Shown here: positions 922 through 14,706 of the stretch, one piece after another
Layout: each line of letters opens with the position of its first letter
Position numbering within the stretch: the stretch's first letter is position 1
DNA from: Natrialbaceae archaeon Tc-Br11_E2g1
GTDB lineage: Archaea > Halobacteriota > Halobacteria > Halobacteriales > Natrialbaceae
Assembly: GCA_001564255.1 (NCBI GenBank)
Contig: LKNC01000037.1
Coordinates: forward strand, 1-14,706
Direction of reading: 5' to 3'
Length of the DNA stretch: 14,706 bases
Translations under genes and position numbers: made by a program
The notes under the pieces: model-generated
Told to the model about the DNA's origin: nothing
Databases searched by the model: none
Seen by the model: only the letters and a program-made list of their open reading frames with translations

Positions 922-922
922 C

Positions 923-2194
923 CTAAACCGGTCGGTCGGCGAGCCGTTCGATCGTTCCGGCGAGGACCGCGACCCCGTGGGCGAGCGTCGCCTCGTCGAC
1001 GTCGAACGTCGGAGTGTGGTGGCCGCCGGGGTGGTCGGTACCGACGCCGACGTAACAGGCCAGTCCGCCGTTTTTCTGGACCTCCCGCATGAGGAAGGTC
1101 GCGTCCTCGCTCCCGCCGAGGTCGTCCCTCTCGAGGACCCCCTCGACGCCGTCGACGCCTCTCGCCACGCCCCCGACGATCGAGGCGAGTTCGGGGTCGC
1201 TCTCCGCACTCGGTGCCTGCGCGCCGACCTCGACGGTCAACTCACAGTCGTGTATCCCCGCGGCGGACTCGAGGACTGTCTCCGCCCGCCCGCGCATGTA
1301 CTCCATGAGCTCCGTGGTTTCGCCCCGAACCTCGGCCACCAGGCGGGCCTGCTCGGCGACGATGTTTGCTGCGGTGCCCCCCTCGATCACGCCCACGTTG
1401 ACCCGGGTCGCCCCATCGGAGTGGCGGGCGATGCCATAGAGGTTGTCGACGGCCGTCGAGAGCGCCTGGATCGCGTTTCGTCCCTCCTCCGGACTGGCAC
1501 CCGCGTGGGCGGACTCGCCGGTGAACGTCGCCTCGAGGTGGCTCACCGCCAGGAAGCCGTCGATGCCGGCGACGATCTCGCCGGTGGGGTGATCGAGACC
1601 GACGTGGACCGCGAGGAGGTACTCGACGTCCTCGAGGTGGCCGCGTTCGGCCATCGCCTTCCCGCCGCCGATGACCTCCTCGGCGGGCTGGAAGAAGAGC
1701 TTGAGTGTCCCCGAGAAGTCGCTTTCGGCGATCGCCTCGAGGACGCCGATTCCGACCGTCGCGTGGGCGTCGTGGCCACAGGCGTGCATCGCACCCTCGT
1801 GTTCGGAGCGAAACCCTTCCGCGGCCGGGACGTGCGCTTTCCCCTCCGACTCTTCGATCGGGAGGCCGTCGATGTCGACACGGAGGCCGACGGTCGGCCC
1901 CTCGCCACACTCGAGGACGGCGACCGCGCCCGTGTACCCACCCTCGAGGGCCTCGAGGATTTCGGGGTCGGCTCCCGACTCCGTCGCCTGGTCGTACCAC
2001 TCGGCCAGTTCCGCCCCGTCGGGGACTCCCATGCGGTGCTCGCCAGCGAGCGCCTCGGGGCCGACGTGGAGGGCCTCGAGGTCGAAGCGCTCGAGTTCCT
2101 CGACGATCCGCGCGGTGGTATAAAACTCCCGCCAGGCGGGTTCGGGTTTGCGATGGAGCTCCCGGCGCAGGGAGACGAGGGCGTCTTCGTCCAT
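923..2194 (-). CDS. AbgA-like M20 family amidohydrolase (p-aminobenzoyl-glutamate hydrolase type)
   Basis: A 423-residue M20 metallo-amidohydrolase, full length for the family. Metal ligands are visible: Cys139 and His141 in MHACGHDAH, the Glu pair at 172-173 in QPAEE, His197 in AVHVG, and the C-terminal HH at 392-393. The central part (about 215-330) corresponds to the lid/dimerisation domain. The segments RMGVPDGAELAEWYDQA, EALEGGYTGAVA, HAGASPEEGRNA and DGATRVNVGV closely resemble, from memory, the AbgA subunit of E. coli p-aminobenzoyl-glutamate hydrolase rather than generic IAA-amino-acid hydrolases. AbgA works there with AbgB; no abgB is present here. The likely reaction is hydrolysis of an N-acyl or aminobenzoyl amide of an amino acid; the substrate is inferred. 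Start at 2194: a weak box (CCTTTTGT, 2218-2225 read on minus) lies about 27 nt upstream, suggesting a leaderless message. First gene of a pair with the M48 protease. Confidence 0.9.
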   Translation of the reverse strand: MDEDALVSLRRELHRKPEPAWREFYTTARIVEELERFDLEALHVGPEALAGEHRMGVPDGAELAEWYDQATESGADPEILEALEGGYTGAVAVLECGEGPTVGLRVDIDGLPIEESEGKAHVPAAEGFRSEHEGAMHACGHDAHATVGIGVLEAIAESDFSGTLKLFFQPAEEVIGGGKAMAERGHLEDVEYLLAVHVGLDHPTGEIVAGIDGFLAVSHLEATFTGESAHAGASPEEGRNAIQALSTAVDNLYGIARHSDGATRVNVGVIEGGTAANIVAEQARLVAEVRGETTELMEYMRGRAETVLESAAGIHDCELTVEVGAQAPSAESDPELASIVGGVARGVDGVEGVLERDDLGGSEDATFLMREVQKNGGLACYVGVGTDHPGGHHTPTFDVDEATLAHGVAVLAGTIERLADRPV

Positions 2195-2217
2195 AGTGGC
2201 GAATCGTTCGAAGCCGA

Positions 2218-2225
2218 CAAAAGGA
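2218..2225 (-). promoter_or_regulatory. weak TATA-like box of the amidohydrolase/M48 pair
   Basis: CCTTTTGT on the minus strand, centred about 27 nt upstream of the ATG at 2194. The spacing fits a leaderless haloarchaeal promoter, but the sequence is a poor TATA match. Confidence 0.35.
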
Positions 2226-2329
2226 TTGTCGCCGGCCGCGGGCGGGCGACGTGGCGCTGGTCGAGGTCGTCGTTAGAAAGGTACGTCAACTAGACGCTGC
2301 CAGCTAACGTGACCGGAGGGCCGCGAGGA

Positions 2330-2346
2330 ACCGGACACTGTCCGGT
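2330..2346. promoter_or_regulatory. perfect 17-bp palindrome, possible operator
   Basis: ACCGGACA-C-TGTCCGGT: two perfect 8-base arms around one central base. It lies in the 211-base gap between the alcohol dehydrogenase stop and the amidohydrolase start, about 140 bases upstream of the latter. It may bind a dimeric regulator or fold as part of a termination region; nothing in the sequence decides between these. Confidence 0.4.
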
Positions 2347-2381
2347 GAGAGCGGCCCGAACACGGCCCACCCTATCGACAA

Positions 2382-2406
2382 ATACTGGCAGCTTGCCTGC
2401 CAGTAT
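2382..2406 (-). terminator. stem-loop at the stop codon of the brockii-type alcohol dehydrogenase
   Basis: Perfect inverted repeat, 10-base arms (ATACTGGCAG / CTGCCAGTAT) with a 5-base loop. It begins at the last base of the dehydrogenase TGA stop and is followed on the minus strand by TTTG. Position and shape suggest a transcript-end or mRNA-stabilising hairpin; the T-tract is too short for a confident intrinsic terminator. Confidence 0.5.
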
Positions 2407-3464
2407 CAGTCGAACCGGATCAGCGGCTTGATGATCCCGTCGTCTTTCTCGTGCATCATCTCGAAGGCCTCCTCGATCTCCGCGAAGTCGAACTCGTGGG
2501 TCGTCATCTTCGTCGGGTCGACCCGGCCGTTCTCCAGAAGTCTCAGAAGTCGCTCGATGCGCAGGCGGCCGCCCGGACAGAGGTCGGTGATGATGTCGAT
2601 CTCGGCCATGCCGACGCCCCACTCCTCGCGGGGGATCCGGCGGAACTCGCCGTCGCCGTGGTAGCCGACGTTCGAGACGATGCCGCCGGGTTTGGTGACT
2701 TTGATACAGTCCTGGAGAGTCCCGTCGGCCCCGAGCGCCTCGATGGCGGCGTCGACGCCTTCACCGTCAGTCAGGTCCATAATCCCCTCGACCGGATCTC
2801 CCTCCGAGAAGTCGACGACGTGGTCCGCCCCGTACTCACGGGCGAGTTCCTGTCGGGCCTCGACGGCCTCGACGGCGATGATCTCGCCGGCCCCCTGGAG
2901 GGCCGCGCCTTTGGTCGCCATCAGCCCGACGGGCCCCTGGGCGAAGACGGCGACCGTCCCCCCCATCGGGATCTCGGCGTTTTCGGCCGCCGCAAAGCCC
3001 GTACTCAGCATGTCCGCGGTGTAGGCCGCCTCGTGGTCGCTCACGCCGTCGGGGATGTGTGCGAGGTTGCCGTCGGCGTCGTTGACGTGGGCGTACTCGG
3101 CGAACACGCCGTCTTTGACGTTGGCGAACTTCCACCCACCTAACGCGCCGCCGGACTGTGAGGGATGGCCGTCCTGGGCGGCCGCGGAGTTCCAGTCTGG
3201 CGTGATTGCACCGACGGCGACCCGGTCACCGGGCTCGAAATCCTCCACCGCCTCGCCGACCTCCTCGACGACCCCGACGGCCTCGTGGCCGAGCGTGAGG
3301 TTGTCCCGCTCGCCGATCGCCCCGTGGACCGTGTGACAGTCGGAGGTACAGATCAGCCCCACTGTGGGCTCGATGACCGCGTCCATCGGACCCGGCTGTG
3401 GCCGCTCTTTCTCTACGATTCCCGTCTCGCCGATCTCCTCCATGACGAACGCTTTCATACTCAT
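2406..3464 (-). CDS. zinc-dependent alcohol dehydrogenase, Thermoanaerobacter brockii secondary-ADH type
   Basis: A 352-residue medium-chain dehydrogenase that follows the brockii/beijerinckii secondary-alcohol dehydrogenase pattern along its length: GAIGERDNLTLGHEAVG, AITPDWNSAA, GWKFANVKDGVFAEY and LCPGGRLRIERL. Catalytic zinc ligands are Cys39, His60 and Asp151. The Cys-rich structural-zinc lobe of classical ADHs is absent, as in that subfamily. The Rossmann loop reads FAQGPVGL at 174-181. At the end of beta-2 the NADPH-binding Gly-Ser-Arg of the brockii enzyme is replaced by Glu199-Ala-Val and the later Tyr by Phe219, so NAD+ rather than NADP+ is predicted. Expected reaction: reversible oxidation of a secondary alcohol to a ketone in the cytoplasm. 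Start at 3464, 30 nt from a strong TTATAAG box; Met3 (3458) is the alternative. Divergent from the methyltransferase. Confidence 0.92.
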   Translation of the reverse strand: MSMKAFVMEEIGETGIVEKERPQPGPMDAVIEPTVGLICTSDCHTVHGAIGERDNLTLGHEAVGVVEEVGEAVEDFEPGDRVAVGAITPDWNSAAAQDGHPSQSGGALGGWKFANVKDGVFAEYAHVNDADGNLAHIPDGVSDHEAAYTADMLSTGFAAAENAEIPMGGTVAVFAQGPVGLMATKGAALQGAGEIIAVEAVEARQELAREYGADHVVDFSEGDPVEGIMDLTDGEGVDAAIEALGADGTLQDCIKVTKPGGIVSNVGYHGDGEFRRIPREEWGVGMAEIDIITDLCPGGRLRIERLLRLLENGRVDPTKMTTHEFDFAEIEEAFEMMHEKDDGIIKPLIRFD

Positions 3465-3490
3465 CGTCTTACCTAACCGTTACCATATGT

Positions 3491-3497
3491 CTTATAA
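3491..3497 (-). promoter_or_regulatory. TATA box, possibly shared by divergent dehydrogenase and methyltransferase genes
   Basis: TTATAAG on the minus strand, centred 30 nt from the dehydrogenase ATG at 3464, giving a leaderless or near-leaderless transcript. Its TTATAA core is self-complementary and is also the best box for the plus-strand methyltransferase (GTG at 3548), which would then have a leader of about 27 nt. Confidence 0.65.
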
Positions 3498-3547
3498 CCC
3501 CACCCCGGTCCCGAAGGCCAAAGACGCCGCAACCCGTCATCCCGACC

Positions 3548-4171
3548 GTGACCGACGACCGCGACCGCTGGAACGAGAAGTACAGCTCCGACGAGGAGTT
3601 CGAACTCCCCGAAGAGCCGATCCCCGAACTCGAGGCCTACGTCGACCACTGCCCGGACGGTCGGGCGTTAGACGTCGCCACCGGAACCGGCCGGAACGCC
3701 CTCTTTCTCGCCGAACGCGGCTACGACGTCGATGCCGTCGACGTCTCCGATCGTGCCCTCGAGATCGCCCGCTCCCGAGCCGACGAACGCGACCTCGGGG
3801 GGGCAGTCGAGTGGGTCCGCGCCGACCTCGCCGAGGCCGATCTCGAGGCCGAGGCCTACGACGTGATCACGGTGAGTTTCTTCGCCGCACTCGAGGTCCT
3901 CCCCGACCTCAAGGAGGCGCTCGCACCCGGCGGCGTGCTCGTCTACGAACACCACCTCCGTGCGGACGGGGGCGTCGAGATCGGCCCCTCGAGCGACCGC
4001 TACCGCTACCGGTCGAACGACCTCCTGCGGGCGTGTCTGGACCTGACGGTCCTTCACTACGAGGAGAAAGTGCGGACGGTCAACGACGGGACCGCGGCGG
4101 TGGCGACGCTCGTCGCACGGAACTCGAGTGGGGGTGCCCAATCGTACCCACGACTGTCCGACGACCGGTGA
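3548..4171 (+). CDS. class I SAM-dependent methyltransferase, TehB-like
   Basis: 207 residues starting at GTG. The N-terminal RDRWNEKY followed by a proline/glutamate-rich stretch is typical of small TehB/tellurite-resistance-like methyltransferases. SAM motif I is LDVATGTGRNALFLAERG at 41-58, the acidic ribose-binding residue is Asp65 in VDAVDVSD, and motif II follows at Asp93 (RADLAEADLEAEAYDVI). A post-core segment LAPGGVLVYEHH is also present. Expected role: methyl transfer from SAM to an unidentified small molecule in the cytoplasm. The acceptor cannot be inferred, and tellurite is only a family label. No Shine-Dalgarno is visible. If the divergent TTATAA at 3492-3497 is its promoter, the leader is about 27 nt. 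The crotonase gene follows 60 bases downstream on the same strand but has its own box. Confidence 0.88.
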   Translation: MTDDRDRWNEKYSSDEEFELPEEPIPELEAYVDHCPDGRALDVATGTGRNALFLAERGYDVDAVDVSDRALEIARSRADERDLGGAVEWVRADLAEADLEAEAYDVITVSFFAALEVLPDLKEALAPGGVLVYEHHLRADGGVEIGPSSDRYRYRSNDLLRACLDLTVLHYEEKVRTVNDGTAAVATLVARNSSGGAQSYPRLSDDR

Positions 4172-4202
4172 CTCCCGACGGGCCGGACCGATTGCCGAAG
4201 CG

Positions 4203-4207
4203 TTAAG
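4203..4207 (+). promoter_or_regulatory. TATA-like box of the enoyl-CoA hydratase gene
   Basis: TTAAG centred 27 nt before the ATG at 4232, the spacing for a leaderless archaeal transcript. The motif is short. Confidence 0.4.
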
Positions 4208-4231
4208 CCATCGGTCGCCATTGGTGGCCGT

Positions 4232-5005
4232 ATGTCATGGGACACAGTCGCCCTCGAGTGGACCGACGACGTCGCAACCGTCACCGTCGACCGCCCCGAC
4301 AGTCTGAACGCGTTGAACCGTGAGACGCTGTTGGCCCTCGAGGAGGCGGTTGCACGGACCCGGGACGACGAGGCGCGGGCGGTGGTTCTCACGGGTGCCG
4401 GTGAGGACGCCTTCGTCGCGGGTGCGGACATCGCCGCGATGCAGGAAATGGACACCGACGAGGCCCAGGAGTACACCGTGATCGGCCACCGGGTGTTCGA
4501 CGCCATCCAGAACCACGAGGCCCCGGTCATCGCGGCGGTAAACGGCTACGCGTTCGGTGGCGGCTGTGAACTCGCCCTCGCGTCCGACCTCCGGGTTGCA
4601 AGCGAGAACGCCGTCTTCGGCCAGACCGAGATCGATCTCGGGATCATCCCCGGCTGGGGTGGCACCCAGCGTCTGCCCCGGATCGTCGGCGACGCGACCG
4701 CACGCAGAATGATCTTCCTCGGCGAGCGTCTCGGCGCCGACGAGGCCGCCGAGGTCGGACTCGTCGAGGAGGTCGTTCCCGGGGACGACCTCGAGGACAC
4801 CGTCGCCGGGATCGCCGAGGAGATCTCCGCCAAGCCGCGTTTCGCGATGAGTGCCGCCAAGGAGGCGCTCAACCAGGCCCACGAGAGTCCGGAATCGGCC
4901 GGGCTGGCGTTCGAACGCCGCCTGTGGAGTGGCCTTTTCGGCACTCACGACCAGCGTGAAGGGATGGAAGCGTTCCTCGAGAAACGCGATCCCGACTTCG
5001 AGTAA
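4232..5005 (+). CDS. enoyl-CoA hydratase/isomerase (crotonase family)
   Basis: 257 residues, the normal size of a single-domain crotonase. The first oxyanion-hole segment is AFVAGADIAAM (60-70). The second is YAFGGGCELALASD (106-119). Both acid/base glutamates of true hydratases are present: Glu113 in GGGCEL and Glu133 in FGQTEIDLGIIPGWGGTQRL. Expected reaction: syn-hydration of 2-enoyl-CoA to 3-hydroxyacyl-CoA, as in beta-oxidation or crotonyl-CoA metabolism. No beta-oxidation partner (acyl-CoA or 3-hydroxyacyl-CoA dehydrogenase, thiolase) is in the window. Alcohol dehydrogenase genes on both sides make a catabolic role plausible but unproven. The start follows the TTAAG box 27 nt upstream. 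The gene converges with the next dehydrogenase, with 60 bases between the two stop codons and no obvious terminator. Confidence 0.92.
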   Translation: MSWDTVALEWTDDVATVTVDRPDSLNALNRETLLALEEAVARTRDDEARAVVLTGAGEDAFVAGADIAAMQEMDTDEAQEYTVIGHRVFDAIQNHEAPVIAAVNGYAFGGGCELALASDLRVASENAVFGQTEIDLGIIPGWGGTQRLPRIVGDATARRMIFLGERLGADEAAEVGLVEEVVPGDDLEDTVAGIAEEISAKPRFAMSAAKEALNQAHESPESAGLAFERRLWSGLFGTHDQREGMEAFLEKRDPDFE

Positions 5006-5065
5006 CGCGGCGGCCATCAGTACGGGACCGTTCCGTGTCCCCGGCCGTCGGCGTGTGTTCGCCGT

Positions 5066-6139
5066 TTACCCGCTGAAGTCGTTACAGACGGGGATCCCCA
5101 CGGTATTGTAGTCGGTCATCGCGTCGAGTTCTTCGGGGACCTGGTGAATGTCGACCGTCTTTTCGACCAGCGCGGTCGGATCGAGCTTTCCGGATTCGAT
5201 CATGCTGAGCATCTCGGAGTACCGGGAGGGCTGCAAGCCGAGTGAGCCGTAGAACTCGATCTCCTTGGCGACCATATCGTCGGTCGGAAGCGAGATCTGT
5301 CCCTCCTCTTCGGACGTCGTGAGTCCCATCTGGACGTGGCGACCCCCCTTCCTCAGGGAGTTGACGGCGTTTTTGCAGGTGGTCGCGATACCCAGCGCGT
5401 CGGCGGACACGTCAGCGCCGCCGTTCGTGATGTCGCGGACTTCCTTTGCGGGGTCGTCGACGTCTCTCGCGTTGACCGTCGCGACGGCACCGAGTTCCTC
5501 CGCACGCTCGAGTTTTTCGTCCATCAGGTCGACCCCGATGACGTTCGCTCCGAGCGCGTTGGCGATGTGAACCGCCGAGAGTCCGATCCCGCCACAGCCG
5601 TGGATGACGACGTATTCACCGTTGCCGACGTCTCCCCGGTGGGCCATACCGTGATATGACGTCATGAACCGACAGCCACAGCCGGCGGCGGTCTCGGCGT
5701 CGATACTCTCCGGAAGCGGGACGGCGTTGACGTCGGCGTTGGGGATGTGGACCTCCTCGGCGAACGCACCCGGCGCTTCGTTCATGAAGCCGAGACCGAC
5801 GTGGTTCTCACAGATGTTCTCCCGGCCGTTCCGACAGAGGTCGCACTTCCCACAGGCGAAGTTAAACGGGATGGCGATCTCCTGACCTTCCTCGACGGTT
5901 TCGACCTCGTCGCCGACGTCGACGATGGTCCCCGTCGGTTCGTGACCGAGAACGTGGGGCGGATCGGGCCGGTAGCCAAACCAGTCCCAGTCCCCCTGCC
6001 AGCAGTGCCAGTCACTCCGACAGACACCACAGCCTTCGACCTTCGCGACGACACCGTGTGGCTCGGGATCCGGGCGTTCGACCTCCTGTACAGTGAGCGG
6101 TTCCTGGAATTCCTCGAGGACGACTGCGTGCATCGACAT
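5066..6139 (-). CDS. zinc-dependent alcohol dehydrogenase, classical two-zinc MDR type
   Basis: 357 residues from ATG at 6139 (MSMHAVVLEEF). Catalytic zinc site: Cys40 in GCGVCRSDWH, His66-Glu67 in VLGHEP, and a Cys of GCGCRF (154/156). Structural zinc lobe: Cys96, Cys99, Cys102 and Cys110 in CGKCDLCRNGRENIC. The nucleotide loop is GCGGIG at 181-186, with Asp204 at the end of beta-2 (VIGVD), which predicts NAD+. Expected reaction: NAD-dependent oxidation of an alcohol or reduction of an aldehyde; substrate unknown. The frame extends to another ATG at 6169, but that codon lies inside the likely TATA box (CTTATG, 6167-6172), so 6139 is preferred; 6133 is also possible. Only distantly similar to the dehydrogenase at 2406-3464, which lacks the structural zinc lobe, so not a recent duplicate. 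Confidence 0.92.
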   Translation of the reverse strand: MSMHAVVLEEFQEPLTVQEVERPDPEPHGVVAKVEGCGVCRSDWHCWQGDWDWFGYRPDPPHVLGHEPTGTIVDVGDEVETVEEGQEIAIPFNFACGKCDLCRNGRENICENHVGLGFMNEAPGAFAEEVHIPNADVNAVPLPESIDAETAAGCGCRFMTSYHGMAHRGDVGNGEYVVIHGCGGIGLSAVHIANALGANVIGVDLMDEKLERAEELGAVATVNARDVDDPAKEVRDITNGGADVSADALGIATTCKNAVNSLRKGGRHVQMGLTTSEEEGQISLPTDDMVAKEIEFYGSLGLQPSRYSEMLSMIESGKLDPTALVEKTVDIHQVPEELDAMTDYNTVGIPVCNDFSG

Positions 6140-6166
6140 TGCAGTCCCGACTTTGCTGAATAACCA

Positions 6167-6195
6167 CATAAGTGTATCCTAGGGTGAATTATATC
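6167..6195 (-). promoter_or_regulatory. promoter region of the two-zinc alcohol dehydrogenase
   Basis: Two minus-strand boxes are possible: CTTATG (6167-6172), 30 nt from the ATG at 6139, and GATATAATTC (6186-6195), which would give a leader of about 25 nt. Both lie in an unusually A/T-rich island (about 6151-6236) for this GC-rich DNA. Confidence 0.5.
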
Positions 6196-6241
6196 TACAC
6201 AAATACGATGTTAAATAGTGTTTTATTCTTAGCAACACGTG

Positions 6242-6271
6242 GGGGAGCCCGGCGTAACCGGCGCGTTCCCC
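6242..6271 (-). terminator. possible termination hairpin downstream of the desuccinylase-family gene
   Basis: On the minus strand, GGGGA pairs with TCCCC and an inner CCGG-CCGG stem closes a 5-base loop. A T/A-rich tract with AATAAAAC and TATTT follows. It begins 35 bases after the stop at 6306. The stem is imperfect. Confidence 0.35.
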
Positions 6272-6305
6272 GCCGACCGGAACGGACTCGCGTGGCTGTC
6301 GTCGA

Positions 6306-7286
6306 TCAGGAATCCCCGTGGCTTTCGAGGACGGCCACGCTCGCGAGCTTGTCGCCCGCGACCACCGTCGCCTCCCGGGTGAGGGTATAGAGGAGTCCCT
6401 CGTGGTCGGTCGTCGCCGTCTGGAGGGGTTCGTAGGTCGCCGGGTGATAGAGCGTGCCCAGATCCGTCCCCTCGGGGACGTACTGACCGAGTTCGAGTGT
6501 GGGGTTCGTCCGGAACAGCCCCGACTCCCGGGCTTTCACCCCTCCGAGGTGGTTGTGGGCGACGGTGCCGTCCCACTTCTCGAATGTCCCCTCGAGCATT
6601 CCGAGGTGTGTACAGACCGCGAGGAGGCCCTCGACGCTCTCGTCGACGACGCCCTCGAGGATCCGTTTGTTGTGAGCGAGTTCCGGCGTGATCGCGGGGA
6701 TCCCCTCCCTGACCGCGGCGACGCGGAGTTTGCCGTCGAAGTTCCGGCGGTGCCACTCCGTGGAGGCGTCGTCGTCGCTCGCTTCGGCGAGTAAGAGATC
6801 GGTCCCGAACGCTTCGGCGAGTGCCCGTGACTCCTCGTCGCCGCGGGGGTAGACCACGTGTGGGTACATCTCCGGGCTGCCCGTGTGGAGGTCGACGACG
6901 GCGTCGACCCCCTCGACGTGCTCCCAAAGGGTCGCGGCCATCCGCTGGTGGAGACCCCCCGAGGCGTCGCCGGGCCAGACCCGGTTCATGTTCGGGTCGA
7001 CCCCGTCGAGTTCCTCGGGGGTCGTGTAGGAGACGCGATCGAACGTGAGTGGGTTCGCGACGGGGACGGCGACGACGGTACCGGAGAGGGCCTCGAGGTC
7101 GAGGCGTTCGTGAAACCGCCGAAGGGCTTCGGTGCCGTTTACCTCCCGGCCGTGCTGGGCGGCCCCGACGTACAGCGTCGGCCCCTCCGTCGGCCCTTCG
7201 TAGGTGTGGACCGTCGTCGACACCTCGAGGCCGGAGGGCAAGGTGGCGAGTGTTACGTCCTCCCTGCGGTAGGTCCCGGGGTTCAT
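6306..7286 (-). CDS. succinylglutamate desuccinylase/aspartoacylase (AstE/AspA) family zinc hydrolase
   Basis: 326 residues from ATG at 7286. Zinc ligands fit His45 and Glu48 ([11 protein letters not shown]) and His134 (VVDLHTG). [11 protein letters not shown] (97-107) carries the Asn-Arg pair that binds the substrate carboxylate. Glu202 in [12 protein letters not shown] matches the catalytic base position. A C-terminal beta domain begins near the repeated [20 protein letters not shown] segment. Family knowledge: these M14-fold enzymes remove an acyl group from N-acyl amino acids or related amides. Substrate is unknown; many archaeal members are not true AstE, and no arginine-succinyltransferase genes are nearby. 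The open frame continues upstream to 7760 but is antisense to the cyclophilin there. An ACATATTC box 25-26 nt upstream supports 7286. Divergent from the cyclophilin gene. Confidence 0.88.
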
Positions 7287-7307
7287 ACGGGTGGCTTCCA
7301 CAGCGGG

Positions 7308-7315
7308 GAATATGT
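7308..7315 (-). promoter_or_regulatory. TATA box of the desuccinylase-family gene
   Basis: ACATATTC on the minus strand, centred 25-26 nt from the ATG at 7286. It supports the shorter start and a leaderless message. Confidence 0.55.
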
Positions 7316-7351
7316 ACGTGAGGGAAGGCCCCCGTCGCCAGCGTCCGCCAG

Positions 7352-7359
7352 TGTTTTCA
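7352..7359 (+). promoter_or_regulatory. TATA box of the cyclophilin gene
   Basis: TGTTTTCA centred 27-28 nt before the ATG at 7383. The same octamer precedes the MutS-like gene at 13384-13391 with nearly the same spacing. Confidence 0.55.
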
Positions 7360-7382
7360 CCCGGCCCGTCCACCCTCGAGGT

Positions 7383-7901
7383 ATGGGAAACCCAACTGCA
7401 ACCGTACACACGAGCGAGGGTGACATCGAGGTCGAACTCTTCGAGGAACGCGCACCGCGGACGGTCGGGAACTTCATCGGCCTGGCGACGGGCGACCGCG
7501 AGTGGACCGACCCGGAGACGGGCGACCGCGTCACCGACCAGCCGCTTTACGACGACGTGCTCTTTCACCGGATCATCGACGGCTTCATGATCCAGACCGG
7601 CGACCCGACCGGAACCGGACGGGGCGGCCCCGGCTACCAGTTCGACGACGAGTTCCACGACGACCTGACCCACGACGGCCCGGGCGTGTTGAGCATGGCG
7701 AACTCCGGGCCGAACACCAACGGCTCGCAGTTTTTCATCACACTCGACGCCCAGCCACACCTAGACGGCCGCCACGCCGTTTTCGGTGAAGTGGTAGACG
7801 GCATGGACGTCGTCGAGAGGATCGCCTCGGTCGACACCGACGCCAACGACAAACCCAAATCGGACGTCGTCCTCGAGTCGGTCACCGTCGACCGGGACTG
7901 A
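7383..7901 (+). CDS. cyclophilin-type peptidyl-prolyl cis-trans isomerase
   Basis: 172 residues, a single cyclophilin domain without signal peptide, so cytoplasmic. Compared with human cyclophilin A, the catalytic arginine is Arg63 and hydrophobic pocket residues are Phe68 and Gln71 ([14 protein letters not shown]). [16 protein letters not shown] (106-121) supplies Gln116 and Phe118. His126 in [11 protein letters not shown] replaces the drug-contacting tryptophan, as in many prokaryotic members. It catalyses proline isomerisation during protein folding. The insertion [18 protein letters not shown] (37-54) lengthens the loop before LYDDVLFHR. The open frame extends upstream to 6858, but that part is antisense to the neighbour. 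The TGTTTTCA box and the start of similarity at [13 protein letters not shown] fix the start at 7383. Confidence 0.95.
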
Positions 7902-7910
7902 CACCGAACG

Positions 7911-7930
7911 GACCTGTCGCCGAGGTCTTT
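7911..7930 (+). terminator. probable terminator after the cyclophilin gene
   Basis: GACCT and AGGTC form a 5-base stem with a 7-base loop, followed directly by TTT, starting 9 bases after the stop. A wider 8-base inverted repeat (CCGAACGG 7904-7911, CCGTTCGG 7936-7943) encloses it. Confidence 0.45.
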
Positions 7931-7965
7931 CGACCCCGTTCGGCCGATGCCCCCATCGACGGGTT

Positions 7966-7977
7966 CAAGTCAACTTG
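7966..7977. promoter_or_regulatory. palindrome at the core-promoter position of cbiA
   Basis: CAAGT-CA-ACTTG: 5-base arms with a 2-base centre, about 25 nt upstream of the cbiA ATG, where a TATA box would be expected but no good one is seen. It could be an operator overlapping a degenerate promoter. Inferred from position only. Confidence 0.35.
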
Positions 7978-7996
7978 CACGAGAACAAATACAGTG

Positions 7997-9298
7997 ATGA
8001 ACGGGTTCGTCCTCGGCGGCGTCAGTTCGGGCGTCGGCAAGACAGTCGGCACGCTCGCGATCATACAGGCACTCGAGGACGCGGGTTACTCCGTCCAGCC
8101 CGCGAAAGCCGGCCCGGACTTCATCGATCCGAGCCACCACGAGGCGATCGCCGGCCGCCCATCTAGAACCCTCGATCTGTGGCTCTGTGGAGAGGAGGGG
8201 GTCCGACGCAACTACGCCCGTGGCGAGGGCGACGTGTGCGTCGTCGAGGGCGTGATGGGCTTGTACGACGGCGACGGCTCGAGTACGGCGATGGTCGCCG
8301 AGGCCCTCGATCTGCCGGCCGTCCTCGTCGTCGACGCGAACGCCGGCATGGAGAGTGTGGCGGCGACCGCGCTCGGGTTCAAAGCCTACGCCGAGGAGAT
8401 CGGCCGCGAGATCGAGGTCGCCGGCATCGTCGCCCAGCGCGCCCACGGCGGTCGCCACGAACAGGGGATTCGCGACGCCCTCCCCGACGACCTCGAGTAC
8501 TTCGGCCGGATCCCGCCGAAGTCGGACCTCGAGATCCCCGACCGCCATCTCGGACTCCACATGGGCGGAGAGGCCACACTTCCCGAGGAGGCGCTGGCGA
8601 ACGCGGCCGAAACCCTCGAGGCCGACCGGCTGGCCGCCGTCGCGAGCGAGCCGACCCCGCCGGGCTCCACACTCGAGACGGGAGCCGAGACGGGGACTCG
8701 AGTCGCGGTCGCCGACGACGCCGCCTTCTGTTTTCGGTATCCTGCCACCCTCGAGCGCGTTCGCGAACGGGCGGAGCCGGTCACCTTCTCGCCGCTCGCG
8801 GGCGACCCCGTCCCCGACTGTGACGGCGTCTACCTGCCGGGTGGGTACCCGGAACTCCACGCCGGCGAACTCGAGGCCGCGGGCACGCTTTCCGAACTCG
8901 GCCGACTCGCGAGCGAGGGTCTGCCGGTTCTCGGGGAGTGTGGCGGGCTGATGGCGATGTCCCGGACGCTCACGACTGCGGAGGGTGACACCCACGGGAT
9001 GGCGTCGATTTTGCCCGCGGACGTGCGGATGCACGACCGTTACCAGGCGCTCGATCACGTCGAACTCGAGGCCGTCGACGGCACCCTGACCGCCGCCGCC
9101 GGCGACCGGGTTCGGGGCCACGAGTTCCACTACTCGACGGCCGACGTCGACGGTGACGCCCGGTTTGCCTTCGAGACCGTCCGCGGTGACGGCATCGACG
9201 GCGACCACGACGGGCTAACCGAGTACGACTCGCTTGGCACCTACGTCCACGTCCACGCCGAGAGCGGGGCGTTCGATCGGTTCCTCGAGGGCCTGTGA
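7997..9298 (+). CDS. cbiA: cobyrinic acid a,c-diamide synthase
   Basis: 433 residues from ATG at 7997; an in-frame GTG lies directly before it at 7994. It amidates the a and c side chains of cobyrinic acid using glutamine and ATP in cobalamin synthesis. The N-terminal half is the P-loop synthetase: GGVSSGVGKT (7-16), AGPDFIDPSHH (38-48), EGVMGLYDG (84-92) and VVDANAGMES. The C-terminal half is a class I glutamine amidotransferase with PGGYPELHAGELE (281-293), nucleophile Cys315 in VLGECGGLM, and the His of TYVHVH (415-420). All motifs are intact and length is normal. The archaeal setting favours the CbiA (early-cobalt) name over aerobic CobB. cobA follows 49 bases downstream without a visible promoter, so the two are probably one transcript. 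The gene ends in three in-frame TGA codons. Confidence 0.95.
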   Translation: MNGFVLGGVSSGVGKTVGTLAIIQALEDAGYSVQPAKAGPDFIDPSHHEAIAGRPSRTLDLWLCGEEGVRRNYARGEGDVCVVEGVMGLYDGDGSSTAMVAEALDLPAVLVVDANAGMESVAATALGFKAYAEEIGREIEVAGIVAQRAHGGRHEQGIRDALPDDLEYFGRIPPKSDLEIPDRHLGLHMGGEATLPEEALANAAETLEADRLAAVASEPTPPGSTLETGAETGTRVAVADDAAFCFRYPATLERVRERAEPVTFSPLAGDPVPDCDGVYLPGGYPELHAGELEAAGTLSELGRLASEGLPVLGECGGLMAMSRTLTTAEGDTHGMASILPADVRMHDRYQALDHVELEAVDGTLTAAAGDRVRGHEFHYSTADVDGDARFAFETVRGDGIDGDHDGLTEYDSLGTYVHVHAESGAFDRFLEGL

Positions 9299-9311
9299 CT
9301 GTGACTGTGAC
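9294..9311 (+). repeat. three tandem TGTGAC hexamers at the cbiA stop
   Basis: Three perfect 6-base copies. In the cbiA frame they read CTG TGA three times, giving stop codons at 9296, 9302 and 9308. Confidence 0.85.
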
Positions 9312-9347
9312 CGCCGAGACGAAGACGACCACTCCCGACTACCGACT

Positions 9348-10037
9348 ATGACAGACGACACCGACCCAACCGATCCGATCGAACGAACTCCCGGCAGGGG
9401 GCGGACCCCAGACGCCAGGGAGATCGAACCACGAGCCCCCGAGGAGTTCGGCCTCACACAGGTCTGGTGGGGCGACGGCAAGGGGAAAACGACCGCCGCA
9501 CTCGGAATGGCCGTCCGGGCGGCCGGCCACGGCTACCGCGTCCACCTGCTCCAGTTCATGAAAGGCGGGGCCTCGAGCGTCGAGGACGTCCGCGGGGAGT
9601 ACAACGCCATCGCGACGATCCCCGGAATCAGCTACGAGAACACCGGTAACTACGGCTGGCACGGCTTTCTCGACGGCTCCGACGACGACGAACACGAGGC
9701 GAAAGCGAAAGGCGGCCTCGAGCGCGCCCGGGAGGTCGTCGACGCCGCCGGCGAGGCCGACCTGACGGGGCCACTCGACCTCGAGGGCGACCCCGAGGAG
9801 GGCGTCCACATGCTGATCTTAGACGAGATCCTCTACGCGGCAAACCGCGAGCTGATCGACCCCGAGGACGTCCTCGACCTTCTCGAGCGAAAACCCGACG
9901 ACCTCGAACTCGTGCTCACGGGTGGCCACGAACGCCCCGAGTACGTCCTCGAGGCGGCGGCTCTCGTGACGAACGTCCGCAAAGAGAAACACCCGATCGA
10001 CGCGGGCCAGCGGGCGCGAAAGGGGACGGAGTACTGA
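9348..10037 (+). CDS. cobA: corrinoid adenosyltransferase, CobA/CobO/BtuR type
   Basis: 229 residues from ATG at 9348. It transfers the 5'-deoxyadenosyl group of ATP to the cobalt of a reduced corrinoid, giving the coenzyme form; in bacteria it accepts cobinamide and cobalamin precursors. The unusual CobA P-loop is WWGDGKGKTTAALG (40-53), followed by LLQFMKGG (67-74), LILDEI (156-161) and LTGGHERPEYVLEAA (190-204). The first 35 residues are a polar, acidic-arginine-rich extension that looks disordered. An acidic insertion, TGPLDLEGDPEEGVHM (140-155), precedes the LDE motif. The frame is open back to 9234 inside cbiA, but similarity starts only after 9348. No TATA box fits this start, supporting co-transcription with cbiA. 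PduO and EutT types are unrelated folds and are excluded by the P-loop. Confidence 0.93.
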   Translation: MTDDTDPTDPIERTPGRGRTPDAREIEPRAPEEFGLTQVWWGDGKGKTTAALGMAVRAAGHGYRVHLLQFMKGGASSVEDVRGEYNAIATIPGISYENTGNYGWHGFLDGSDDDEHEAKAKGGLERAREVVDAAGEADLTGPLDLEGDPEEGVHMLILDEILYAANRELIDPEDVLDLLERKPDDLELVLTGGHERPEYVLEAAALVTNVRKEKHPIDAGQRARKGTEY

Positions 10038-10055
10038 TCGCGAACCGTCGATGGG

Positions 10056-10061
10056 CTTTTA
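10056..10061 (+). promoter_or_regulatory. TATA box of the FKBP gene
   Basis: CTTTTA centred 27-28 nt before the ATG at 10086. It argues against the GTG at 10071 as start and for a separate transcript from cobA. Confidence 0.55.
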
Positions 10062-10085
10062 CCCGATAGCGTGGCAGGTACACAC

Positions 10086-10619
10086 ATGGTCGAAGACGGA
10101 CGGGTCGCCGTGATCCACTACACTGCCAGACTGGTAGACGGACCTGACGCCGGCGAGGTCGTCGACACGACGGACGTCGACGTCGCCCGACGGGAAGGGA
10201 TCTATCACGACCACCGGGACTACATGCCCCTCGAGTTCCGGGTCGGCGAGGGGGGCGTCGCGCCCGTCCTCGACGAACTCGTCGAAGACCTCGAGGTCGG
10301 CGAGACGCGAACCGAGGTCGCCGAGCCCGACCGGGCTTTCGGCGAGTACACCGAGGAGGACGTCCACGAGGTCGCCCTCGAGGCGATCGAGGAGGTCACG
10401 GGCGAGGTACCCGAGGAAGGGGATTTCGTGACGACGGCCGACAAACGGTCCGGCTGGGTGACGGCCGTCGAGGACGATCACGTCGTCCTCGATTTCAACC
10501 ACGAACTCGCGGGCGAGCGCCTCGAGGTGGCGGTCCGGTTGCTCGCCGTTCACGGCGAACCGGGCGAGGGGAGCGCGAAGACCTGGGAGAAAAAGTACGG
10601 GAAACGTCGGTCGGAGTGA
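10086..10619 (+). CDS. FKBP-type peptidyl-prolyl isomerase with SlyD-like IF domain
   Basis: 177 residues. The FKBP core runs over about 1-105: VAVIHYTARLVDG (7-19), VVDTTD (25-30), YMPLEFRVGEGGV (46-58) and AFGEY (84-88). An insert-in-flap chaperone domain at about 106-145 ends in the hallmark LDFNHELAGERL (135-146), where SlyD has DxNHPLAG. The C-terminal tail KTWEKKYGKRR is basic, unusual in this acidic proteome. There is no signal peptide. Role: proline isomerisation and holding chaperone for folding proteins. The Pro-Gly that usually follows the flap (VIPGLE) is Pro-Val here (VAPVLDEL, 58-65), which may lower isomerase activity. No His-rich metal tail of bacterial SlyD is present. The start at 10086 is chosen over GTG 10071 because of the CTTTTA box. 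A TnpB relic abuts its stop codon on the other strand. Confidence 0.9.
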   Translation: MVEDGRVAVIHYTARLVDGPDAGEVVDTTDVDVARREGIYHDHRDYMPLEFRVGEGGVAPVLDELVEDLEVGETRTEVAEPDRAFGEYTEEDVHEVALEAIEEVTGEVPEEGDFVTTADKRSGWVTAVEDDHVVLDFNHELAGERLEVAVRLLAVHGEPGEGSAKTWEKKYGKRRSE

Positions 10620-10737
10620 TTCTCGCACCCACAGTTCAGGCACTCGGAGTCCTCGTCGTCGCGGTTGTCGGGCTGGTGAACCCGCAGTGTGAGCAACGCC
10701 GACTCGTGTTCTCGGGGTCGACAGCAGTCGTGTCAAC
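10620..10737 (-). pseudogene. relic of a TnpB zinc ribbon (IS200/IS605, IS1341-type), frameshifted
   Basis: Minus-strand translation from about 10722 gives VDPENTSRRCSHCGFTSP, then the match jumps one frame and continues from 10669 as DNRDDEDSECLNCGCENH. Together these form the C-terminal four-cysteine zinc ribbon of TnpB, with CxxC twice and the typical NTS-RRCS lead-in. One base is missing from the proline codon at the join (10670-10672 area). No RuvC-like part is seen upstream, where the reading runs into the promoter of the 58-residue gene. The Asn-Ala-Ala tail normal after NHAD is lost at the FKBP stop. It is therefore a short dead fragment, about 40 codons. In haloarchaea the 3' part of IS1341-type tnpB also gives rise to sense-overlapping RNAs; whether this relic still does cannot be judged. 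Confidence 0.82.
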
Positions 10738-10750
10738 GGAATCTGGGTGA

Positions 10751-10758
10751 GATATATG
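10751..10758 (+). promoter_or_regulatory. TATA box of the 58-residue protein gene
   Basis: GATATATG centred 28-29 nt before the ATG at 10783. It makes the upstream in-frame ATG at 10756 (inside the box) an unlikely start. Confidence 0.6.
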
Positions 10759-10782
10759 CACACAGGTCGCATACAGTACCGT

Positions 10783-10959
10783 ATGTTCCGTGCGATCTTA
10801 CCCGAGGGGCAGATCGTCTGTGAGCGCTACGAACACGGCGAGAAGGGACTCAAACTCTACAATGAGGCTGACGACCTCATCGCGTTCGTCCCGTACACGA
10901 ACTTACACGCATTGCTCAACGAGGACGTCTACGCCGAGGACGAACGATCGATCATGTAA
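10783..10959 (+). CDS. small conserved-looking haloarchaeal protein, 58 residues, function unknown
   Basis: Begins MFRAILPEGQIVCERYEH and ends EDVYAEDERSIM. It has GC-rich third codon positions, an acidic composition and a strong TATA box at leaderless distance, so it is very likely a real gene despite its size. No cysteine pairs or membrane segment are present; a single Cys sits at residue 13. Alternating hydrophobic stretches (AILPEGQIV, LKLYNEADDLIAFVPY) suggest a small beta-rich fold, with a helix in TNLHALLNEDVY. I recognise no domain. Its last 8 bases overlap the end of the convergent TFB gene. The coding strand upstream carries the antisense TnpB relic. Confidence 0.75.
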   Translation: MFRAILPEGQIVCERYEHGEKGLKLYNEADDLIAFVPYTNLHALLNEDVYAEDERSIM

Positions 10960-11911
10960 CCGGTTCCTCGAGGTCGTGGTCGATCGCCCCGAGTTGTTCC
11001 CGGTACCGGTTCCGGACGGTGACGACGGTCGTCTGGGCGGTCTCGGCGACGGCCCGCTGTGGGACGGTCTCCTCACAGAGCAAGCCGGCGGCGTAGATGG
11101 CCGCTGCGGCGTAACCCGTGGGGGATTTGCCCGAGTGCAGTCCCTGGCCGGTCGTCTCCTCGATGATCTCCATGGCCGTGGTCTCGACGTCCTTGCTGAC
11201 CTCGAGTTCCGAGCAAAACCGTGGGACGAACTGGCGTGGATCGGTGGGCTCGAGATTGATGTCGAGTTCGTCGGCGATGTAGCGGTAGGTGCGGCCGATC
11301 TCGCGTTGTTCGACGCGGGCGACGGCGGTCACTTCCTCTAAGCTTCGGGGGATGTCCTCCTGGCGGCAGGCGGTGTACAGTGCCGAGGTGGCGACGCCCT
11401 CGATGGAGCGACCACGGATGAGATCGCGCTCGAGTGCTTGGCGGTAGATGACGCTCGCGGTTTCCTTTACCGGACGGGGAACGCCCAAGGCGCTGACCAT
11501 CCGATCGATCTCGCTGAGGGCGTACTTGAGGTTCCGTTCGCCGGCGTTTTTGGTCCGGATGCGTTCCTGCCAGACCCGCAGACGGTGGAGCTTGCCGTGT
11601 TTGTCGGCGGACATCGAGTGGCCCTTGGCGTCCCGGTTTCGCCAGTCGATCGTCGTCGTCAGCCCGCGGTCGTGCATCGACTGGGTGAGGGGAGCCCCCA
11701 CCCGGGAGAGGGTCTCGTGTTCTTGGGAGTTAAACGCCCGCCACTCCGGACCGTAATCGATCGGGTCCTCGCTCAAGACGAGCCCACACTCCCGACAGAC
11801 CCGCTCGCCTCGGTCCGGATCGTGGACGATCGTGTCGGCGTCACAGTCGGGGCACAGTTCGGTCTCCTCCCGTGATTCGTGCCTGACGCGGTTCGTTATC
11901 GACTGTGTCAT
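10952..11911 (-). CDS. tfb: transcription initiation factor IIB (TFB)
   Basis: 319 residues from ATG at 11911. It bridges TBP-bound promoter DNA and RNA polymerase. The N-terminal zinc ribbon has Cys20, Cys23, Cys39 and Cys42 (ELCPDCDADT...VCRECG). The B-reader/linker region contains YGPEWRAF (53-60), VGAPLTQSMHDRGL and RLRVWQERIR. Two cyclin repeats follow, about 122-210 (ERNLKYALSEIDRM, GRSIEGVATSALYTACR) and about 225-310 (GKSPTGYAAAAIYAAGLL). The BRE-reading helix-turn-helix is VPQRAVAETAQTTVVTVR (283-300). All core parts are intact. Haloarchaea carry several TFB paralogues with different promoter sets; which one this is cannot be told here. The frame extends nine codons further to ATG 11938, but that lies in the CTTACAGT box, so 11911 is preferred. 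Confidence 0.95.
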   Translation of the reverse strand: MTQSITNRVRHESREETELCPDCDADTIVHDPDRGERVCRECGLVLSEDPIDYGPEWRAFNSQEHETLSRVGAPLTQSMHDRGLTTTIDWRNRDAKGHSMSADKHGKLHRLRVWQERIRTKNAGERNLKYALSEIDRMVSALGVPRPVKETASVIYRQALERDLIRGRSIEGVATSALYTACRQEDIPRSLEEVTAVARVEQREIGRTYRYIADELDINLEPTDPRQFVPRFCSELEVSKDVETTAMEIIEETTGQGLHSGKSPTGYAAAAIYAAGLLCEETVPQRAVAETAQTTVVTVRNRYREQLGAIDHDLEEPVT

Positions 11912-11936
11912 CGGTGGTTGGCATGCCCCGGCGTGC

Positions 11937-11944
11937 ACTGTAAG
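11937..11944 (-). promoter_or_regulatory. TATA-like box of the tfb gene
   Basis: CTTACAGT on the minus strand, centred 29-30 nt from the ATG at 11911. It fits a leaderless tfb transcript and argues against the longer start. Confidence 0.45.
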
Positions 11945-11993
11945 GGGGTCACATGGTTTCGGGAGAAAGGGGAACTTACCACGGAAACCCCGG

Positions 11994-12026
11994 ACTCGAG
12001 AGGGGGAGAAACCGGACCTCTCGAGT
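11994..12026. repeat. 10-bp perfect stem-loop in the tfb-upstream region
   Basis: Arms ACTCGAGAGG and CCTCTCGAGT with a 13-base loop (GGGAGAAACCGGA). It is the strongest of the four inverted repeats here and lies 83-115 bases upstream of the tfb start. Confidence 0.6.
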
Positions 12027-12621
12027 GTTGTCCCTGCTGGACGCTGGCCTGCCGGCTCGGTGACCGTCGACGCGCGACCGGGGGGTCCGGCCGTTCCGGT
12101 CGGGGAAACGACGTGGTGGCGACCCGGTAAACCGGCGGGACGGTCAGGGCTCTCTGACCGCGGTAAATCACTCGCTGACGTCGTAACGGGCTATTGGGCC
12201 GGCGAACCGTCACCCGATTTTATTGCGATCTCTCGAATCGACGGGAGTGGGGTCGCCGCTGTGGTACCCGAGGGTGCTCCGATGGGAACGTTCACCTGTA
12301 CGTCACCGATACGGCCACGAAAGTCATCGATACTCGCCGCCGGCGAGTCGACCGGAAGCGACGGCACACGAGCGGGAAGCGAACGCACTCGTGAACGCGA
12401 ACGGCCGGGAGGAACCCACTGCGTACGACCGTTGCAGACCCTGCGAAACGTGACCGTGTTTAATAGTTCCTACGTTGCCCTTCGAATTGGTGTGTCAATC
12501 GTGACTGCGACCGACCCCTCGCGGGTACATCGACTACTGGCGTTACCGTTATGTGGGAGGGCGTCAGAACGTATTGGTAGAGGAACAATTTCTGTGCACG
12601 TCTTACGCAGGACAGCCACGG

Positions 12622-12629
12622 GGATAATA
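12622..12629 (+). promoter_or_regulatory. TATA box of the HTH/membrane protein gene
   Basis: GGATAATA centred about 30 nt before the ATG at 12656, giving a leaderless or nearly leaderless transcript. Confidence 0.5.
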
Positions 12630-12655
12630 GCTGTTTACGACGAGGTTCGCCAGTA

Positions 12656-13249
12656 ATGTCGTCGATAGATACGTCCTTCCCCGAAGAGATCACGTCCGTT
12701 ACCGAAGAGGACAGAGAGAGCCTCTCGAAGGACGTCATTTTCGAGCTCCTGAAAAACCGGAGGCGGCGGGAGGTCCTCCAGTACTTACTCGAGTCCGAGG
12801 AGACGGTAACCCTCGGTGAACTCGCCGAACAGATCGCCGCCTGGGAGAACGACATCGACGTGGCCGCGCTCAGTTCCGACCAGCGAAAGCGCGTCTACGT
12901 CGCCCTCTACCAGACCCATCTCCCGAAGATGGACGACGCCGGCATCATCGAGTACGATCAGGACCGGGGACTGATCGACCTCTCCGACAACGCCGACCTG
13001 CTGGTGATGTACCTCGACACGGACGCCCACCGGACCGACCGCTGGGACCGGTGGTATGCCCTCGTTAGCGTCGTGGGCGTGGTGGCCGTCACCGGTGCCT
13101 ACTTCAGCGTTCCACCGGTCTCGCTCGTCCCGACGGTCACGGTCGCCGTCGCCGTCGTCGTCGCCTTTCTCGCTCTCTCCGTTACCCACGCCGTCGTGAA
13201 CCGTCGCCTCGAGCGAAACGTCGACGGCAAACTCTCCCGGATCGAGTAG
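12656..13249 (+). CDS. haloarchaeal HTH-domain protein with two C-terminal membrane helices (DUF7344-like)
   Basis: 197 residues. The first part (about 24-120) looks like a winged helix: SKDVIFELLKNRRRREVLQY, LESEETVTLGELAEQIA, QRKRVYVALYQTHLPKMDDA and GIIEYDQDRGLIDLS. This matches the domain common in haloarchaea and labelled DUF7344. Two hydrophobic helices follow at about 133-151 and 156-178, with a short proline turn (SVPPVS) between and a basic end (NRRLERNVDGK). A cytoplasmic DNA-binding head tethered to the membrane is the likely layout, suggesting membrane-linked regulation; targets are unknown. Haloarchaeal genomes typically carry many paralogues. A GGATAATA box supports the ATG at 12656. 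No operon partner is seen, and an oligo-T run follows the stop. Confidence 0.85.
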   Translation: MSSIDTSFPEEITSVTEEDRESLSKDVIFELLKNRRRREVLQYLLESEETVTLGELAEQIAAWENDIDVAALSSDQRKRVYVALYQTHLPKMDDAGIIEYDQDRGLIDLSDNADLLVMYLDTDAHRTDRWDRWYALVSVVGVVAVTGAYFSVPPVSLVPTVTVAVAVVVAFLALSVTHAVVNRRLERNVDGKLSRIE

Positions 13250-13260
13250 CGCCGAAAGGG

Positions 13261-13286
13261 TTTTTGGGGGCGGGGACCACTCCCCG
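13261..13286 (+). terminator. oligo-T tract and hairpin after the HTH/membrane protein gene
   Basis: TTTTT at 13261-13265, 11 bases after the stop, fits archaeal U-tract termination. A 6-base stem (CGGGGA 13271-13276, TCCCCG 13281-13286) with loop CCAC follows it. Confidence 0.45.
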
Positions 13287-13383
13287 ATGGCTCCTGTGTC
13301 GTCCAGTACCGGAGCGGTTCGCGTGCCAGCAACTCGTTCCCGACGCGGGGGCCGTTTTTCCAAGCCGGTCGGCCTGGTCGCGG

Positions 13384-13391
13384 TGTTTTCA
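13384..13391 (+). promoter_or_regulatory. TATA box of the MutS-like gene
   Basis: TGTTTTCA centred 29-30 nt before the ATG at 13417. It is identical to the box of the cyclophilin gene. Confidence 0.55.
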
Positions 13392-13416
13392 AGTCAGTCG
13401 CCCCGAATTTCGGAGT

Positions 13417-14599
13417 ATGCGACTCGAGGAGTACTGGGGAGTCGGGCCGAAGACCCGCGACTTACTCGAAGACGAACTCGGGACCGAACGGGCGATCAAG
13501 GCGATCGAGAGCGGCGACGTCGGGGCGCTCTCGAGGGCGGGGCTCCCGCGGGGGCGAGCCACCCGTATCCTGCGACGGGCCACCGGCGGTGAGGGAATGG
13601 CCACGCTCGCGACCCGCGACGCCCGCGAGGCCTACAAGGAGGTTCTCGGGGTCGTCGCCTCCCACGCAGTCACGGAACGGGCCGGGGAGCGGATCCGCGT
13701 GCTCACACCGCTTTCGAGCCGCGAGGAGATGGAGTCCCGCCTCGAGGCCGTCCTCGCCGCCCGCGAGGCCTGGGGTAGCCTCGAGGACCGAACGCGCGAG
13801 GCGATCCTCGATGCCTACGACCGCTACGACGACCGCGACGGGGACGAACTCGCGAGCGTCGAGACCGCCGTTGCAGTCCTCGAGACGGGGGTCGACGCCG
13901 GCCCCTTCGCGCCGATCGGCGACCTCGACCGTGAGCGCCTGGAGAAAGCGGCGACGGCGCTTTCGGGACTCGAGGACGGGCGGGTGCGTGACGGCGTCGA
14001 CGAGGACCTCGATCGGCTCCGGGAGACCGCCGGGACCGTCGAGGATCTCACCGCGAACGCCCACGCGGTCGTCGAGGAGCTCCGTGAGGCGGGAGTCGGG
14101 GACGCAGACCGGTTCCGGGCGGCGTTCGAAGATCGGCTCCTCGCGGAGACCGACGTCACGGTCGGCAGGGTGCGGGAGGCGATGGCGACCGACGCCGCCG
14201 ACGCGACCGACTTCGTCGCCACGACGGTGCGGAGACTCCGATCTACCCTCCGGGAGGCGGTCGACGACCGCGAAGAGATCGTCCGGGCCGACCTCGAGGA
14301 CACCCTCGCGGCGACCGAGGACGTCGTCGAGGCGGCGGTTTCGGCCGTCGAGGAACTCGCACTCTCGCTGTCGCTCGCCCGGTTCGCCCTCGCCTACGAC
14401 TGTACGCGCCCGACCGTCCTCGAGGGCGAGGGCGCTCTCTCGGTGGTCGGGGCACGCAACCTCGAGCTCGCCGACCGCGAGGAGGTGGTCCAGCCCGTGA
14501 CCTACGCGCTCGGGGAGCATACGCTCGCGGAGACGGACCTCGAGGATCTGCCGGGTGAAGAACGCGTCGCGGTGTTGACCGGGGCGAACAGCGGCGGGA
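13417..14599 (+). CDS. MutS5/MutS2-like ATPase with N-terminal helix-hairpin-helix, broken at Walker A
   Basis: 394 native residues are visible. Residues 1-55 form helix-hairpin-helix-like DNA-binding motifs (WGVGPKTRDLLEDE, RAGLPRGRATRILRRA). A long acidic, helical core/clamp region follows, about 65-350, with runs of EELREA and ADLEDTLAATEDVVEAA. The ATPase begins with VLEGEGALSVVGARN and VAVLTGANSGG (384-394), the start of a MutS-type Walker A whose next residues should be KTTLL. Instead the codon is ACG and the frame continues as nonsense (TIERRVDSRTPALK) to the window edge, because the DNA beyond is the reverse complement of a later part of the gene. Family knowledge: MutS5/MutS2-type proteins are DNA-binding ATPases linked to recombination or branched DNA rather than classical mismatch repair. 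The start is set by the TGTTTTCA box. Confidence 0.85.
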
Positions 14600-14705
14600 C
14601 GATCGAACGCAGGGTCGACTCGAGGACGCCGGCGTTGAAACTGGCGTGGCGTCGATGGAAGACCAGCGCGTCGACGGGGGTGACTTCCGCCCGTTCGGCG
14701 GGGAC
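14589..14705 (-). pseudogene. inverted internal segment of the same MutS-like ATPase gene
   Basis: Read on the minus strand from 14705, the sequence encodes VPAERAEVTPVDALVFHR, then RHASFNAGVLESTLRSIVPP, then Leu at 14591-14589. This is the stretch that follows Walker A in haloarchaeal MutS-like ATPases (compare GLPVPAE, then VFHRRHASFNAG, before the Walker B DEFE). It has good codon usage and no stops. It therefore belongs to the gene on the plus strand but is flipped. About 20 residues (roughly 60 bases) between GGKTT and VPAER are not in the window. CAGCGGCGGG (14589-14598) is compatible with both sides: NSGG on plus, and VPPL on minus. Confidence 0.85.
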
Positions 14706-14706
14706 G

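Follow-up and report, generated by a model that had tools for sequence, protein, structure and literature searches.

An inverted tail at a contig end in the Walker A motif of a haloarchaeal MutS-like ATPase gene, very probably a chimeric artefact

The locus at the end of the contig

The stretch of DNA analysed here (the window, 14,706 bases) is the whole of contig C26, positions 1-14706, from the fragmented genome assembly of Natrialbaceae archaeon Tc-Br11_E2g1, which comprises 2,155,803 bases in 210 contigs and is 67.7% complete. Position 14706 is thus the end of a contig, as an earlier note on this DNA had suspected. The contig has a GC content of 66.7% and encodes TFIIB; at positions 7994-10034 it carries a gene for a CobB/CobQ-like amidotransferase followed by a gene for a CobA/CobO-type corrinoid adenosyltransferase, both of the cobalamin pathway according to Pfam.

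At the right end of the window, the plus strand carries the 5' part of a gene for a MutS-like P-loop ATPase (13417..14598), which starts at 13417 (MRLEEYWGVGPKTRDLLEDELG) and reads through 394 codons to ...VLTGANSGG, ending at the GG of the Walker A motif at 14598. This part is an open frame that is colinear with three relatives up to that point, where the Walker A lysine is lost, in agreement with the reading in the earlier note. The remaining bases, 14599..14706, form an inverted tail of minus-strand sense: BLASTN and a search of the organism's own genome identified them as the reverse complement of positions 61-168 of a separate contig, C123, with 107/108 bases identical and one mismatch. 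In a BLASTN alignment of 14585-14706, 119/122 positions matched, with one gap (E 1e-55); an inverted copy this long and this nearly exact far exceeds what chance would produce. The source of the tail lies 60 to 167 bases further along the same gene; C123 continues this gene and encodes VFHRRHASFNAGVLESTLRSIVPPL in its own frame, which confirms the proposal that the minus strand of the tail represents a later region of the same protein.

Judged by its sequence, the gene can safely be called a MutS-like P-loop ATPase gene. A full-length relative from the same genus (584 aa) passes the Pfam MutS_V model with 32.1 bits against a cut-off (gathering score) of 30.2, the C123 part alone reaches 17.9 bits against the same cut-off, and the matches of this relative to the NCBIfam models KamC, MutS2, and MutS are well below their cut-offs. 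The intact relative therefore resembles the MutS-like and KamC-like P-loop ATPases in passing MutS_V and in matching KamC, MutS2, and MutS below cut-off, but it differs from them in passing none of the NCBIfam cut-offs, and a role in mismatch repair is putative. Accordingly, the MutS-like assignment of the earlier note holds through the same-genus relative, whereas its more specific label of a DNA-repair ATPase is not reached by the NCBIfam scores.

The exact join and the shared bases

About 10 bases at 14589-14598 had been described as serving both orientations. The sequence CAGCGGCGGG is present there, but the run shared with C123 is only 8 bases long, namely AGCGGCGG at 14590..14597 on the plus strand, which covers codons for Ser-Gly-Gly and has its other arm at C123:170-177. 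With C123 as the sequenced partner strand, bases 14589 and 14598 fit the forward side only, and a 10-base run would be possible only with a partner strand of different sequence from C123. Base 14599 (A) is compatible with both sides, and thus the join is located at 14598|14599 or one base later, 108 bases from the end of C26; the forward-sense sequence across 14598/14599 is GGGAAGACG. The mismatches at 14598 and 14613 correspond to third codon positions of C123 (GTT/GTC for Val and ACA/ACC for Thr) and leave the residues unchanged; they fit a strain variant without proving one, and a sister strain may be the source of the tail.

Continuation of the forward gene on a second contig

Contig C123 opens with GAAGACGACGCTGCTCGAG, that is, with the last G of GGG and then KTTLLETLCQVV; its base 1 is window base 14598, and from there the gene reads on as GG|KTTLLETL... 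as far as the stop codon. In 3/3 aligned relatives (G001, which is of the same genus, as well as G016 and G011), window base 14598 and C123 base 1 map to a single position of one gene. Joined by script, the two contigs give an open frame of 585 aa with a single terminal stop. The ATPase gene on C123 is followed on its 3' side by a DUF6735 gene (about 951-1437), and the gene order is the same in all three aligned relatives. The start of C123 coincides exactly with the join base and is devoid of the 127-base overlap found at six other pairs of contig ends. This start may mean that the assembler met a branch at the join, which either a real or an artefactual second path would produce.

The earlier note had also considered an on/off switch of the ATPase by a real intragenic inversion. 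In such a case, a segment of ~168 bp flanked by short inverted repeats, one at Walker A and one at SIVPPL, would be flipped in a minority of cells, which would break Walker A and reversibly disable the MutS-like ATPase, and the assembler would have kept one junction. The position of the join on an inverted repeat (8 bp when compared with C123) speaks for such an event, as do the orientation and position of the tail, which fit a flip with a second junction ~60 bases past the contig end. However, C123 runs without interruption across the would-be second junction (about C123:168-177) as far as the stop codon, which counts against a common inversion, since that should have broken C123. Searches of the genome with this region likewise reported no second junction, and they yielded no other near-identical copy among the candidates scored (the best 40 of 336 and the best 40 of 227 first-look candidates). 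C136 and C46 gave weaker matches, over short stretches with 79-86% identity, and the paralogue on C136 shows 42% protein identity. Instead of both orientations with both junctions, the assembly contains one inverted junction only, at a contig end. Furthermore, among the ORFs selected for a Pfam scan, 12 in the window and 4 on C123, none showed a site-specific recombinase domain.

Relatives, inverted repeats, and genome-wide patterns

The C123 part of the gene was matched in 60/60 relatives searched, closely in 47 of them (E 2.6e-86 or better) and more weakly in the other 13, and each of the 47 close copies lies in an open frame of 569 aa or more that is free of internal stops. The join site, which was read in the best 29 of the 47 close-copy loci, is uninverted in every one of these 29, where GANSGGKTT is followed in the same frame, 58 residues on, by the motif [RKQ]x[IV]VPPL. 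In these relatives, exact inverted matches between the two sites reach a maximum length of 4 to 12 bases (under 8 bases in nine, 8 in six, 10 in 11, and 12 in three). Arms of at least 8 bp, present in 20/29 relatives (10 or 12 bp in 14/29), mean that the site could in principle recombine, which is in favour of the inversion; on the other hand, the arms fall below 8 bp in 9/29 relatives, and their length follows the codon choice for SGG and PPL.

Short inverted pairs are also frequent in the gene itself. We counted 43 exact inverted pairs of at least 8 bases within 400 bases of the joined gene, as compared with 37.8 +/- 6.6 in synonymous shuffles (n = 200); the respective values are 18 vs. 13.5 +/- 3.7 for pairs of at least 9 bases and 7 vs. 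5.1 +/- 2.3 for pairs of at least 10 bases. Since the number of pairs is within the shuffle range, the 8-bp pair at the join is unremarkable, and neither the shuffles nor the 29 relatives revealed inverted repeats that are longer or more conserved than chance at this site.

A degenerate pattern for the inverted join, which fixes some codons and misses other codons or crossover points, occurs in 1/392 genomes of the order, this one being the window itself; its occurrence in 0/391 other genomes also argues against a real inversion. The corresponding pattern for the forward join, which likewise fixes some codons, overlooks alternative codon choices, and is not specific to this gene, occurs in 181/392 genomes; the window's own genome is outside this count, as its copy of the gene is divided between two contigs exactly at the join. 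In the wider contig database genome_contigs, from which the window's own records were possibly omitted, the inverted pattern had eight matches, none of them haloarchaeal by title. By their titles these belong to Streptomyces (two), a Streptomycetaceae MAG, Planctomycetota, Sphingomonas, Bacteroidales, Muribaculaceae, and Cupriavidus, and they were taken as chance matches.

Intragenic, phase-variable inversions (invertons) have reportedly been described. The window resembles such invertons in having an inverted segment inside a coding sequence between inverted repeats; in contrast to them, its second junction was not found, the repeat length is not conserved, the scanned ORFs encode no recombinase, and no inverted relative was seen. 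Thus, the proposed on/off switch of a DNA-repair ATPase has no support beyond the join itself, and we consider a real inversion very unlikely.

A second inverted tail in the same assembly

We examined 142/420 contig ends of the assembly (both ends of 43 contigs and the left end only of 56, with C140 and C148 completed after matching) and identified a second inverted tail. Positions 1-122 of contig C140 are the exact reverse complement of C39:12778-12899 and are joined via TCGAGGTCCGTT, a 12-bp inverted repeat that also occurs at C39:12999, to a body matching C39. The C140 body is 91% identical to C39 from 12999 on (12999-13185, 170/187 bases), so that, with an identical tail and a body of 91% identity, two strains seem to have been joined here. 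The gene affected encodes a flavin amine oxidoreductase (Pfam PF01593, 62.5 bits on C39 and 35.6 bits on C140, with a cut-off of 19.8), and this amine-oxidase-family gene is unrelated to the MutS-like gene of the window. The assembly therefore contains at least one inverted tail beyond the window, a lower bound, since partners were sought within 24% of the genome. A mixture of strains is also evident at the ends of C99 and C30, which overlap by 373 bases at 97.3% identity.

Several other pairs of ends were rejected. The right end of C78, which matches C148:44-186 (97.9%), was tried as a third chimeric tail, but the stretch is a dispersed repeat with eight matches in the genome including the C148 copy. 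The C12/C158 and C188/C200 pairs (127 bases each) and the C136/C164 pair (54 bases) are ordinary end overlaps that look inverted since both partners are left ends, while the C12/C6 pair (36 bases, 88.9%) and a 38-base direct repeat within C108 were set aside. The dispersed repeat is ~170 bases long (C148 20-200) and has seven more matches with 88-99% identity, on C158, C49, C80, C172, C46, C78, and C184; several of its copies are at contig ends, and it looks like the end of a mobile element and is likely to have caused contig breaks.

Origin of the inverted tail

An overlap of exactly 127 bases is seen at six pairs of contig ends and points to a de Bruijn assembler run with k = 127. The tails of C26 and C140 are both shorter than 127 bases, and every 127-mer in them includes the join; tails of this length would fit a few chimeric reads rather than a well-covered alternative path. 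The same figures can be read in favour of a mis-join made by the assembler or a gap filler alone, without any chimeric molecule, because the site is a contig end and the tail, at 108 bases (117 when counted from where the shared arm begins), falls short of the probable k of 127. However, as all 127-mers of the tail contain the join, some read probably carried it, and a homology of 8 to 12 bp is shorter than the k-mers in usual use for assembly. A software-only mis-join is therefore extremely improbable. Because of this short homology, we infer that the chimera arose during library preparation, by mis-annealing of strands in end repair or by amplification, and not in software.

Thus, we conclude that the terminal 108 bases of C26 are almost certainly an artefact, a chimeric library molecule that was built into a dead-end contig tail. 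The earlier note had favoured a chimeric molecule or an assembly error at a contig end, and this reading is supported by the contig end, the continuation on C123, the forward-only relatives, and the second tail on C140. The tail is the reverse complement of nearby sequence at a short inverted homology, and a similar tail exists in an unrelated gene. In the proposed sequence of events, a strand ending in ...AGCGGCGGG would have annealed to the complementary CCGCCGCT, which lies about 170 bases downstream in a second copy of the gene, and would then have been extended in reverse, giving the inverted tail.

Library artefacts that join both strands of reads at inverted repeats are described in a published study (PMC10908179), where they are filtered for repeats of at least 8 bp and modelled as a pairing of strands with subsequent exonuclease trimming and fill-in; another study (PMC8674242) contains a similar statement on microhomology and end repair. 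The anatomy of the C26 tail is what this strand-pairing model would yield. The artefacts explained there by the PDSM model share with the C26 tail a strand followed by its own reverse complement, near-perfect inverted repeats, and stray mismatches; they differ in that they occur in soft-clipped human capture reads, whereas the tail reported here lies within a contig end of a draft genome (PMC10908179).

Implications

With the tail attributed to a chimeric library molecule, the chromosome would carry one ordinary, uninterrupted forward gene, with C26 running into C123; the apparent feature is most likely not real and the intact gene ordinary. The case illustrates that a chimeric contig end in a conserved motif can mimic a phase-variable switch. 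In scans of fragmented assemblies for intragenic inversions, candidates lying closer to a contig end than one k-mer length should be dropped and the second junction required.
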